A DNA stretch of 64,000 nucleotides. Source: Salminus brasiliensis. Lineage: Eukaryota > Chordata > Actinopteri > Characiformes > Bryconidae. Below the pieces are notes generated by a model, which worked only from the letters and a program-made list of their open reading frames with translations, did not search any database and had not been told where the DNA came from. The stretch's first letter is position 1. Each line of letters starts with the position of its first letter. The stretch lies in NCBI RefSeq assembly GCF_030463535.1, contig NC_132893.1:25818282-25882281 (forward strand). Direction: 5' to 3'. The position numbers and the translations under genes were made by a program. Below are positions 41,101 to 57,755 of the stretch, piece by piece.

Positions 41101-43515
41101 ATACATGTTTAAACATGTAGATTTAAATACTCCACAAAAAAGTATAGCTGCAGATGTGCAGTCATATGCAAATGTTTGGACACCCCTGTTTGAATGACAT
41201 TTTGACGTTCCAAATTTAGAGTGCAGAGGCTGTTTATTTGCTGAATTTAGCATATTGGATCAAATTATGTATTAAATATCATTAGGGTCAGTCATAACTG
41301 ATTTTTTCTATCTGATAACTGACATCAATGTGTTCCAAAAAAATTCATTTTCATGCATATAATGTCAGGTTGGTATCTTATTACATTTGTCTGATAAAGA
41401 GGCAAAATATTGTGTGTGTGATTGTGCCCTGTGTGTCCCAGCTCCATATATGTTGGTTATGGAGTATGTAGCCCACGGGACCCTCCGCAGTTTTCTGCAG
41501 TTGAATCAAAACAGACTGTGCTTGGACAAAGAGCTCCAGCATCTCTTCACCCTCGCAGCCTACCACATAGCACACGCCATGAAGCACCTGCGCTCCAAAA
41601 TGGTACACCACTCAAGCTTAGCTTTTACTCTGTATTGTAACAATGATGTTTTTGTTGAGTCTCTGTGGTTATTATGTGATGATCAGATATTGCACTGCGA
41701 TCTGGCACTGAGGAATATCATGGTGCACAGTTTTCCTCATGAAGTAAAGGTAGCCGAGTTTGGACTGGCCCGAGAGGTCGCGCGCACATGGAGCAGACGT
41801 GGCAGCTGCAAAAAAGACTGCAAGGTAAGAGCTCAAGGGAAATCAGTGATGTTTTTACCCATGGACCTACAGCACAACTAACCCTGCTCAAGTATTCAGT
41901 GAATGAAAAGTGAAATATGCTGCTTGCATTGCTTTGGATCATTGCACTGATGCATTCAGACCACTCTAGATACTACATAGCTGTGCATGTGACTGTTTCA
42001 CTGGCATAGACTTTCACATTAACACTGAGCATGTGTTCTACACCCACTCACATTCTCATAACTCATGACCTGCTGTCACATTAGCCATAGCTCTTCATTA
42101 GCTCACTCTTTCTGTCCAGCTCTTCTTGTTGTTCTGTTATTTGTTGTACTGGTGTGGACCAGAGGAGGATGGGTTTCTCTTTTGAGTCTTTCATTGTGGA
42201 AAGTGCTATATAAATAAATCTGAACTAAATTGCATAGTTGCATTTAATTTTTGAATATGTTTAAAGATATATGATAAAGATGATAAAAAGTGTGCTCTGT
42301 TTAAACTAAGCTGAAAACTAAATAGATGTTGGATATAGACTGACTTGACTGACTTAAATATATTAATACATTAATATAGACTGACTTAAAGCACTTTTGT
42401 AAGTCGCTCTGGATAAGAGCATCTGCTAAATGCCGTAAATGTAAATGTAAATGTTAACTGTAAATGATCAAAAAGCATCATCCAGAAGGCTCAGTTGCAT
42501 TCATAACTCTGACGGGTCACTAAAAGGCCTCCTCTCAAAACTCAACGTCTTCTTGGTGAAGCCACAGATAGGCTGATAATCACTTTGAAAGAAGTTACGG
42601 TGTTCTAAAGTAGAGTAATGGTGCGCTTGTCTACACGGTGGTCTCTGTGAACAGCTGGAAGATAGCTGGAGGTTGCAAGAAGGTATGAGTTCTGAAAGAC
42701 AGAACTTCTGAAGAAAGCCCAGGAATGACCTGACTAAGAAGAAGTGTAAAAATTCCATGATCAGATGAGACCAAGAGTTTTTGGCCAGAATTCTAGGCGC
42801 TACAGTATGTGTGGTGGGGACATCACCACCATATAGACACCATCCTTATAGTGAAGCATGGTGGTGGTAGTACTGTGACATTTAGGGACGCCATATTGTG
42901 GGTGGAAAAGTTAGGGCAATTCTATGGAACTGTGACTGACAGGGGCCTGAGGAAATGTATTAACTGATTATTTTGGCAGAACTGTTAGCGTGGTGGGGCC
43001 CAGTGTAATATCTTTTCACAGGGCCCAACATCCCTGGCAGTGCCTGCACTCCATTTAAAGGGGGAAAATCAGCCCAAAAATATTCTTGCCAATATTAAAG
43101 TGTGGAATTTTAACACTTACATATGCAGCATATCTCCATGTTTTATTTTCGAATTATTTCATAATAAAAATAAATAAATAAATAACAGACAGGAAAACTG
43201 CATGCATCCGAAAATGTTTGAGTGGGTTGAATGCTTTTTCATTAAGTCATATGGGGACATACTGTGGTCACATGCACATCCTGTAGCTTATTTTGACTGT
43301 GTAGCATCAGGTTGTGGCTGACATGTGTCCCTCTGCAGGAACGAATTCCCTCCCGGTGGTACCCTCCAGAATATTTCAAGAACGATTACTATGGATTCAA
43401 AGGGGATGTTTGGGCATTTGGAATTGTATTATGGGAGATGGAAACATTCGGTAAGTGTCCTTTATAATGAATATAACTAACAACTATATTCCAATTAATA
43501 TTATTTGTAGCATTT

Positions 43516-52888: not shown

Positions 52889-55800
52889 GGTGGTACATGA
52901 TATGGAATAAAGTATTGGGATACACCTCATTAAATCAGGTGTTTCGTTCTGTCCCATTGCCATAGGTGTATAAAATCAAGCCCCTAGCCACGCAGTGTGC
53001 CTTTACACACATCTGTGAAAGAATTGGTCTTTCTAAAGAGCTCATTGATTCCACCATGTTTCTGTAATAGGATGCCACCATTGCAACAAGTCAGTTTGTG
53101 ATTCCACCATCGACTGTAAGGGATATTATTGAAAAGTGGAAGCATTTAGAAACCACAGCAACTCCGCCACAAAGTGTCAGACCACGTAAAGTTACAGAGC
53201 GGGGTTGCAGAGTGCCAAGCCGCCAACACTCTGCTGACTCAATAACTTTCCAGTCCTGCTGTTAGAACTGCTGCCATTTTTACTATTTGATGAACCATAT
53301 TGGATTCTCATTCTAGGATGCTTTTCTCTCACTGTTTATTACCAGTTGTTCCCAGTCAGAAGGAGAAGAGAAGCCAAATTCGTACAGCACTGACGTAGAG
53401 GCCAAGGTATGGAGCAAATTATTAACATATGATGAGTATGCACACCTCAAATACATCTGAGAACTCTACATTACTGCAAGTCATTGACCGTCTATCATGC
53501 TTTTGTAGTGCTTTGCTGTGCGATCTCTGGGATGGGTGGAGATCTCTGAAGAGGAGATGGCACCTGGAAAAAGCAGCATTGCCGTCAATAACTGTATAAG
53601 GCAGCTGTCTTACCACAAACACAACCTGCATGACACTGTTGGCATCTGGGGAGAGGTATGTGTGTTCTTATTCCATAAAAGAGACATTGAGATGCCTTAG
53701 TTGTGGTAGTTGGTCACGTTTGGTTGTGTTTACCAGGGAAAAGACATGCTTCTGGTGCTGGAGAATGAGATGCTGAATTTGATTGATCCCCTGGGACAGA
53801 CTCTACTCCACACTCAACCTATTGTCAGCATCCGTGTGTGGGGTGTTGGCAGGGACAACGGCAGGTCAGTCTGATATCCGAGCCTCAGTTTTTAAACATA
53901 CAAACAAAGGAGAGGAGATGAAAATCTAATGTTTTGGAATTGTTGGATGCTGAATGCTTAACTGGTATACCTATCCACAGGTTTTTAGCTCACTAAAGGC
54001 TGACTTATTATTTAGTGCAGACGCACATGGATGCATCTGTGAGTTTCAGCATGTTATATATGTAGGTGTCTGCCAACGCACTGGCATGTAATGAGAACAT
54101 GTACTCTATGGGTCATACGCACTGCATTGTTTTTGTAATATTTAGAGGATGAGTCATATAAATATGATGCTTGTACTGCTCCATGTTGAGCACAAGTTCT
54201 GGCTGGTGTACAGTTCCATTCCTGAGGATCAGTCCATTCTGAGCATTACCAAAGAGCCAATCAGCCCTTGTTTGATGCACAACTCCACAGATATACACGA
54301 CATACTTAAAAATAATAATAATAAAGGTTCCAAATTGATTTATTTTCAGAATTTTTAAACCAGTCAATTGATTCATGGAGGAAATAATCAGCAGATAAAT
54401 CTATAATAAAACGAATCATTAGTTAGATACAAAATGGTTCAGGAAGCCTCCTCGTCATGTGTAGCTATGTTTATTTTATCCAAAAGGAAGACTTTCTACA
54501 TAAGCTTCCATTATAAAATAGATAAAATCATAAGCCTTCGTTTTTCATTCCTTTAGGGCCACTATATCACATAATAATAAAAAAACTAATAGTCAGGAGG
54601 AGGAAGAAAACTTCTTACTGTATACATACTGTATACTTTCAGAGATGGCTATCATGCCATTAAACTCTCATACTGTTGCAACTCCACACATGATCCTCTT
54701 TGTAGCCTGACCCAGATATGCAGATGTGCGTCTGTGCAGAGGCATAAGTCAGCCTTAAGAGTGCAAGTGATTTACATTGCTTCTATTAATGTTTAGTGTT
54801 GTTTTCTGAAGGCCTGCTCCTTTTGCAGTTTGCTGTTCTAAACAATAATACTAAAATGTCTAACTATGCCATGTACTACTCAGGGTTAGTCATGTTGCTT
54901 TTGCCCCTTATTTTTAAATATGATTTGTTTTATTAGAAATTATCCCTTTTCTCACTAACACCATGTTGAGGCTGAGCTCCTATAAGTAATTCTGTGAGAT
55001 TTGCAGTGGTGGGAAACTGGGACAGTTCTAACCTAATAAACTCAGCTCATCAAAGTTGGTAGATAAAGTAAAGGTAGTAAAGCCACCACTGGCTTGCAGT
55101 GCTCCAGGGTATTTGCATTCTCAGTAACCATGCTTTTTGTTGCACTTTTAAGTTTTACTTGTGTAGTTAAACAGTAGCTGCATAAGTAATATACGTGTTG
55201 CTGCATAAACAATGTTGCTTTACAAGCATGCTTTGTTTGATTTTACGTTGACCTGCTAGACTAAGCTGTTCTTTTGTTGTGCTCCCTCTTTTGTTTGCTA
55301 TTCAAACCTTGTTTGATTTCTCTCTTTGCTGCTGCATTTTGGGACTCAGGGAGAGGTAGTGTATTGCTATTATTGTGCACGATTTTTCATTATATGTGGT
55401 TGTCATGACCGTATGCTGCCACAGCTCATTTTCACCCCTCCAGTCTCATTTTTATAGTAGTCTTACTGCTGTATTAGATGTTCATTATTGTATTGGTTAT
55501 TTAAACATTATATACAGTCATTGGGGGTTAAAAAATGTCATTGTAGACTCTTAAACATGATCTTTACATTTATTTAATTTTCAACATTATGAAATAGTAG
55601 CGTTCTCCATTTCATTTCCATTTCCTGCTTGTGCTTTTCTCCATAGCCATCTGTCTACTTTCATCCTAGGCACTCAGATATACTTTCATGTACTCAAGCA
55701 GTTTATCACGTTTACGTTTATTTCTCACCCCAGGGACTTTGCATACGTGGCTCGCGACAAGCTGACCCATGTTCTGAAGTGTCATGTGTTCCGATGCGAC

Positions 55801-57755
55801 ACTCCTGCCAAGAACATTGCCACCAGCATGCATGACATCTGTTCCAAGGTAACCGTATATCTGCTGTTGAGTGAGCATTAATTATGCAATGCGATTACTT
55901 GAAATGCGTAACTGTAGTCCTCAAAACAATTCTCTCTGAGATTTTTATTAAAAGCAGCAGAATTATGTTCTTCACAATATTATATGCGCTTCATAGTTTG
56001 ATACCAGATAGAGGACTTTCTATGGATATGGGTTCCATTTGATTCAGTTTTTCAGTTTCATTCAAATTTGTCTAATTTGGACTGACCTGGATCTTTCTGC
56101 AGATTATGGCCCAGAGGAAGACCTCAAAGTCAAGTCTGAACAGGCTCAACATTGACCCGTCCAAACTAGTGGATCTCCCATTTCAGGGTAGGCTGTCAAA
56201 ATCATGATACTAAGCCAGATTCATTTCATGTAACATCATGGCAGCTCAAAATGTTCAAATCTCAAACATAATAAACACAATTCTTAGCTTATTTTGGTCT
56301 CATGCATCCACATTTTAACACACTTTCAGAGTTCCCAGCACCAAAGAATGAGCTGGTCCAGCGTTTCCAGGTGCGCTACCTTGGTAATGTGCCGGTGGCA
56401 AAGCCAGTAGGTAAGGATCTTGGTTTTATGTGGCTCTTTGTGGAAACTGTTGATTGCTGTGCCAGTGCTTTTTCTGTTCTGCCAGAGATGCAGGCTTGTC
56501 ACCTTGTCATGATTGCTTAGGAAGATGGTTTGGCTTGGGGGTATTTTCTGACTCAACCTCAGGGCAATGTGGTCTTTTCAAACCATGTTACTAAAATTGT
56601 AGGTCTTGCTAAGACTTGTTCTGCTGCTCAAACATTTAAGGGGTAAACCCTGATGCAATAACTGTAACAGTTGTTTGAGCGCATTGCTTTAATTGTCCAC
56701 ATTTTGAGAAAAGATGCCCTCAGCATCGGATCGTTTTTACTTTTCTAACAGTAACCCCTGACAGTTTATGACCTTTTCCACAACAATCTGGTGTGATCCC
56801 AGTGATGACAATTTTTTTCCCCTCTTCTACGAATTAAAGTGGCTAGGTCATGTATTTTGGTAGCATCAACTTAGTCTTTGGATTTATGTAGTTATGTGTT
56901 ACTGAACATGATTTGTACTGTGGATGTGCTTCATGTAGGCATGGACATTGTTAATTCTGCCTTGGAGACTGCCCTTGGTGCCAAAGATAAATGGACCTCA
57001 GTGACTGTGAATGTGGCATCTGCTACTCTTACTATCCTTGTTTCAGATGTGAGTACTATACATGGCACTTACTCCTTGTATATATATATTTTTTTACAAT
57101 GCCTTTGTCATCACTTTAACCAACTTTGTGTTAAGATATTAGCTTGTAATTTTTTTTTAAAGTAAAGATTTTTTTGAAGAAACACTTTCTTCCCTCTATC
57201 CCCCCCCCCTCCATTTGTGTGGGTGCAGACTGAGGAGGTTCTGTCAGAGTGTCGCGTTCGGTTCCTGTCATTTATGGGTGTGGGAAAGGATGTCCACACT
57301 TTTGCCTTCATCATGGCGGAAGGCCCTGGAGACTTCATCTGCCACATGTTCTGGTGTGAGCCCAATGCTGCCAGCCTGAGTGAGGCTGTGCAAGCTGCTT
57401 GTATGGTAAGACATAATGCTCTCATAATTGTCTACTGATCTATGTGACATTTCTAATTCTGTGAGATTTACAGGTGATGTGTAGTATGAAAAATAAAGTT
57501 GTTATAAAAATGTATGTCCCATTTGCCTTCATCATATATATAGCAGAAAGTGTCTGTTGTTGTGTGTCTAACTTTATATGTCTGTTGTGCCAGCTGAGGT
57601 ATCAGAAGTGTCTGGATGCAAGACCCCCTAGCACCACCTCATGCCTGCCAGGCCCTCCTGCAGACTCTGTGGCACGCAGGGTGGGCTCCAGTGTCAAGAA
57701 GGGCGTGCAGAGCCTGCTGGGCAGCTTCAAAAGATCTGGGGCCCAGACGCCCTAA
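50355..57755 (+). CDS. apbb1: Amyloid beta precursor protein-binding family B member 1 (Fe65)
   Basis: Adaptor that binds the APP intracellular domain and brings it together with Tip60 and other partners (known for FE65). Coding exons: 50355-51204, 51571-51776, 52385-52438, 52558-52634, 53346-53406, 53509-53655, 53737-53864, 55734-55848, 56103-56187, 56330-56410, 56939-57048, 57229-57405, 57594-57755; 2253 nt, 750 residues (human 710). Seen: [14 protein letters not shown] near the N-terminus, a Glu run (196-217), ASDEDSS before a WW domain at 298-326 (LPAGWM to QWEPP), PTB1 at about 417-546 and PTB2 at about 575-697 ([30 protein letters not shown]). The WW and tail details favour APBB1 over APBB2 or APBB3. 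The start is the ATG 19 nt into exon 2 (context GCCATGT); an in-frame ATG at 50307 lies in the intron. All junctions are GT-AG and in phase. Confidence 0.96.
50940..51005 (+). other. apbb1: Polyglutamate run in apbb1
   Basis: Twenty-two codons, 21 Glu and one Lys, written with mixed GAG and GAA (residues 196-217). Mammalian FE65 has an acidic stretch at the same place. The opposite strand reads as a Ser-rich frame, which is an artefact. Confidence 0.9.
51571..51776 (+). CDS. apbb1: apbb1 exon 3: WW domain
   Basis: Encodes the full WW domain: DLPAGWMRV, then [17 protein letters not shown], with both signature Trp (302 and 323) and the central aromatic block. It binds proline-rich partners such as Mena (known for FE65). 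Confidence 0.95.
52811..52886. repeat. (GT)n microsatellite, apbb1 intron 5
   Basis: About 37 consecutive GT units, pure enough to be polymorphic. Confidence 0.95.
52908..53250 (+). pseudogene. Tc1/mariner transposon 5' fragment
   Basis: Starts near tattgggatacacctcatt and continues into sequence that translates, with frame breaks, to the paired-type DNA-binding part of a Tc1-like transposase ([11 protein letters not shown] and RQHSADSIT around 53175-53250). It ends abruptly before the catalytic domain. It sits in apbb1 intron 5 after the GT microsatellite. Confidence 0.75.
53407..53508. other. apbb1: Short apbb1 intron 6
   Basis: A 102-bp intron between phase-0 exons, ending in ttttgtag. 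It is noted only because it leads directly into PTB1. Confidence 0.8.
53865..55733. other. apbb1: apbb1 intron 8 hosting the microexon
   Basis: A 1.87-kb intron within PTB1, between GlyArg and AspPheAla codons. It is AT-rich, with no repeats that I recognise, and contains the 6-nt microexon at 55350-55355. Confidence 0.75.
55350..55355 (+). CDS. apbb1: apbb1 6-nt neuronal-type microexon (Arg-Glu)
   Basis: GGAGAG is bounded by tttgggactcag and gtagtg. Flanking exon 8 ends in AG (phase 2) and exon 9 begins GGAC. Skipping gives GRDF; inclusion gives GRERDF, the exact residues of the neuron-specific mammalian FE65 form. Upstream lies a pyrimidine stretch and a TGCTGCTGC cluster at 55327-55335, matching the UGC motif that SRRM4 uses to activate neuronal microexons. 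Confidence 0.85.

Follow-up and report, generated by a model that had tools for sequence, protein, structure and literature searches.

Gene and Exon Organization of the Locus

The window, that is the whole stretch of 64,000 nucleotides of Salminus brasiliensis DNA that was analyzed, contains a gene which, judging from the encoded WW domain, two PTB/PID stretches and matches to APBB1 entries in the PDB, is apbb1. In a Pfam search the exons of the window encode the FE65-type architecture, with WW (PF00397) and two stretches of PID (PF00640). When the first PTB domain (PTB1) was used as a query, the sole PDB relative with E <= 0.001 was the sequence of 3d8d/3d8e/3d8f, which belongs to APBB1 (we take 3d8d to be the human protein), and the best PDB match of the PTB2 query was 3dxc, named APBB1. 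An open frame at 41363-41881 of the plus strand matches the protein kinase family PF07714 (E 4.9e-17) and probably represents exons of an adjoining kinase gene.

The part of apbb1 considered here lies on the plus strand and starts with the coding exon at 53509..53655, identified by its AG/GT borders, its translation (ending in GIWGE) and its match to Pfam PID, which encodes the first part of PTB1. It is followed by the exon at 53737..53864 (exon 8 of the first-pass annotation), which ends with GGC AG in phase 2, and by the exon at 55734..55848 (exon 9), which starts with G GAC TTT and encodes (R)DFAYVARDK. The two latter exons are separated by a phase 2 intron of 1869 nt, with GGC AG/gtcagt on the donor side (exon end 53864) and ccccag/GGAC on the acceptor side (exon start 55734).

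The 6-nt Site and the Encoded Peptide

Within this intron, the hexanucleotide GGAGAG at 55350..55355 is placed between an AG (55348-55349) and the putative 5' splice site gtagtg (55356..55361), in the context ...tttgctgctgcattttgggactcag/GGAGAG/gtagtg; the letters directly before it read ...ttgctgctgcattttgggactcag. The predicted 3' splice-site region (55318..55349) comprises, besides the AG, a CU-rich stretch with a PTB-like UCUCU (55318-55325) and UGCUGCUGC at 55327-55335, the roles of these motifs being presumed. UGC occurs at 55327, 55330 and 55333, i.e. at -23, -20 and -17, and the run at 55327-55335 is the sole TGCTGCTGC on the plus strand of the window. A UGC motif close to the 5' side of the 3' splice site, a feature of SRRM3/4-dependent microexons, is present at this site.

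Since the intron is in phase 2, inclusion of GGAGAG changes GRDFAYVA into GRERDFAYVA and leaves the reading frame unbroken. The insert is Arg-Glu, equally readable as Glu-Arg, and 3d8d, a construct of the APBB1 PTB1, carries both residues at the corresponding point, so that GRERDFAYVA is found in both. The first-pass annotation had described GGAGAG as a microexon bounded by AG and GT between apbb1 exons 8 and 9, adding in frame to PTB1 the two residues of the mammalian FE65 insert and preceded by a UGC cluster 15-23 nt upstream. On re-reading, its coordinates proved exact, the intron borders, phase and translation agree with it, the residues are those of 3d8d and the cluster lies where it had been placed. 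As a separate observation, the exon at 53509-53655 also ends with GGGAGAG followed by gta (53649-53658), the same letters as the last G of the acceptor, the microexon and the start of the donor; this is probably due to chance.

Chance Occurrence Versus a Real Exon

The observation of a 6-nt exon is thus confirmed, and on sequence grounds the exon looks real. The alternative, that AG-GGAGAG-GT is an intronic string without a splicing role, was weighed against a null model consisting of dinucleotide shuffles of the 1869-nt intron (5000 or 2000 replicates). AG-N6-GT sites are indeed frequent (on average 7.0 in each shuffled intron), and at least one well-formed site, whatever its peptide, was found in 1264 of 5000 shuffles. 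The intron itself contains five stop-free AG-N6-GT sites, the microexon and four others, and an equally clean site in it, the hexamer CCATCT at 55647-55652 (Ser-His-Leu), is also preceded by a pyrimidine-rich tract and two UGCs. The shuffles and this equally good rival indicate that the appearance of the splice sites, taken alone, says little.

GGAGAG between AG and GT was reached in only 2 of 5000 shuffled introns and any R-E-R hexamer in 22/5000. Under strict criteria (an R-E-R hexamer, 18 nt free of AG directly ahead of the acceptor AG, and UGC at -30 to -11), which were chosen post hoc, once the site had been seen, while the peptide was given in advance by the known protein, a site appeared in 3 of 5000 shuffles and, in the same test confined to sites beyond the first 39 nt, in 0 of 2000. 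The window, both strands taken together, has 466 stop-free AG-N6-GT sites, of which 55350-55355 alone satisfies these criteria. A genome-wide pattern, TGC-N8-AGGGAGAGGT, gave 69 matches (47 forward and 22 reverse), including a tandem array on C5, and is uninformative for 55350-55355, which is absent from these matches because its nearest UGC sits 4 nt further upstream than the spacing of the pattern. The weight for a real exon therefore rests on the identity of the predicted peptide with the known insert of 3d8d, which makes chance a poor explanation. Together with the rarity of such sites in the shuffles, a similar arrangement in a paralog (see below) and the fish cDNAs that carry the exon, as reported in PMC4317164, this renders a string without splicing role exceedingly improbable.

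Paralogs in the Same Genome

Further FE65-type PTB1 exons were found in the genome on C28, C18 and C12; the copies on C28 and C18 are presumably apbb2-like, and that on C12 presumably apbb3-like. The matching intron on C28 contains AGAGAG (6042806-6042811, minus strand), which would give R-E-R and has a pyrimidine-rich tract upstream, UGC at -17 and gtaaca downstream. A site of this type was found in 8 of 2000 shuffles of that intron. Another R-E-R site in the same intron, AGAAAG, lacks UGC and follows a region poor in pyrimidines (share of 0.33 over 27 nt). On C18, the equivalent intron contains AGACAG (19406353-19406358, minus strand), which is flanked by AG and GT, would give R-D-R, and is preceded by a pyrimidine-rich tract and followed by gtaact, with UGC absent from -30 to -11; in the corresponding test, 18 of 2000 shuffles had an R-E-R or R-D-R site that was clean and pyrimidine-rich. 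The C12 copy yielded two PTB1 exons, while the exon directly upstream of the relevant intron was not found in a region that includes a run of N. The counts for C12 apply to the 9171 nt that were scanned ahead of the downstream exon; these contain 66 stop-free AG-N6-GT sites, one of them R-E-R and located in a purine repeat, and the sites were counted neither for nor against a microexon. By sequence, one of the three paralogs thus has a good candidate (C28) and one a weaker candidate (C18), and C12 is not judgeable.

A tentative and rather doubtful scenario for the C18 copy is that, after duplication of an apbb2-like FE65-type gene in fish, it kept the 6-nt microexon, now encoding Arg-Asp (AGACAG), and lost the UGC close to its acceptor. 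Its tissue regulation would then have diverged from control by Srrm3/4, which the apbb1 and C28 copies would have retained.

Published Occurrence of the Microexon

The GGAGAG microexon is not new, being known as a kind of exon, in this gene and as a feature of fish. All three APBB genes have 6-nt microexons, also in fish cDNAs, and the origin of the APBB microexon has been dated before the early vertebrate gene duplications (PMC4317164). In zebrafish, apbb1 is among 21 conserved microexons selected by criteria that included neural inclusion and regulation by srrm3/4; a line with the microexon deleted was made by CRISPR, and it is among those with altered expression of the host gene and its paralogs (PMC12626424). 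The Fe65 mini-exon 9 encodes E462-R463, and the isoforms without it are predominantly non-neuronal (PMC8304848). The claim of the first-pass annotation that the microexon is preserved in fish Fe65 is borne out by its published existence and alternative splicing in fishes (PMC4317164). The novelty that the annotation suggested does not hold, this microexon being covered already by PMC4317164, PMC12626424 and PMC8304848. In view of these earlier reports, fish included, the finding is already known: the same microexon has been described in mammals, birds and fish, and the present case is an ordinary further example. It illustrates that a two-codon exon is recognizable from the raw sequence and extends a known microexon to a further fish genome, leaving the view of FE65 and of microexon biology unchanged.

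Proposed Regulation and Function

Given its splice dinucleotides, its frame, the identity of the peptide with the APBB1 PTB1 construct and the like candidate in a paralog, 55350-55355 is almost certainly the fish ortholog of the published 6-nt neural microexon of APBB1/FE65 (mammalian mini-exon 9). By extension from mammalian and zebrafish papers, from which Srrm3/4 action, skipping outside neurons and the tuning of PTB1 contacts are all drawn, a factor with an eMIC domain (Srrm3/Srrm4) would act in neurons at the UGC run just 5' of the AG and lead to inclusion of the tiny exon, while outside neurons the microexon would be skipped, perhaps with the help of PTBP1 at the CU-rich stretch. With the exon included, PTB1 would gain two charged residues and might bind partners, Kat5/Tip60 among them, more strongly, as reported for the mammalian protein. 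In the literature, SRRM4 recognizes a UGC close to the acceptor of a protrudin exon, and Apbb1 is named as an SRRM4 target (PMC5247714); the insert raises binding to Kat5/Tip60 and, to a lesser extent, to APP (PMC8911335). In Neuro2A cells from which the Apbb1 microexon had been deleted, retinoic-acid-induced neurite outgrowth was unaffected (PMC5247714), and the majority of microexon deletions in zebrafish gave minor phenotypes (PMC12626424), results that count against a strong effect of the microexon.

A GCACG, a weaker RBFOX motif, lies at 55377, 22 nt 3' of the exon, and the PTB-like UCUCU is found on the other side. These elements, and the general link of brain microexons to RBFOX and PTBP1 (PMC4317164), are what would be expected if the exon were real but constitutive in this species, or controlled mainly by PTBP1/RBFOX instead of Srrm3/4. 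This reading appears quite unlikely given the UGC run at -23 to -15 and the fact that regulation by srrm3/4 was one of the criteria by which the zebrafish exon was chosen (PMC12626424); moreover, the single GCATG within 55100-55700 sits upstream, at 55226, whereas the over-representation of TGCATG around such exons is on their downstream side (PMC4317164). Control of the orthologous neural microexon by Srrm3/4 is the preferred reading.

As for the structural context, the two residues have been mapped onto PDB 2ROZ, and their closeness to the APP tail has been argued on this basis (PMC4317164). The chain sequence of 2roz is that of 1wgu and was matched by the PTB2 query, and 2roz/1wgu was not matched by the PTB1 query at E <= 0.001. 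Since the microexon lies in PTB1 and 2ROZ matches PTB2, the structural argument of that paper seems to concern the second PTB domain instead of the first. It is offered as a lead that the contact suggested with the APP tail may have been derived from the wrong domain; 3d8d, which carries the insert itself, would be a better template than 2ROZ.

Comparison with Known Systems

Among the systems with which the site can be compared, the 6-nt microexons of APBB2 and APBB3 (PMC4317164) occupy the paralogous position; in the present genome the C28 copy has an Arg-Glu candidate, whereas the C18 copy would give Arg-Asp, without a near UGC. The zebrafish apbb1 neural microexon (VastDB EX0013846) belongs to the same gene in another fish and is likened here by its published description (PMC12626424). 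The mammalian APBB1/FE65 mini-exon 9, the skipping of which removes two residues (PMC8304848), is from other species and is likened through the protein to a site known in S. brasiliensis from genomic sequence; it lies at the same place of PTB1 and encodes the same residues as 55350-55355.
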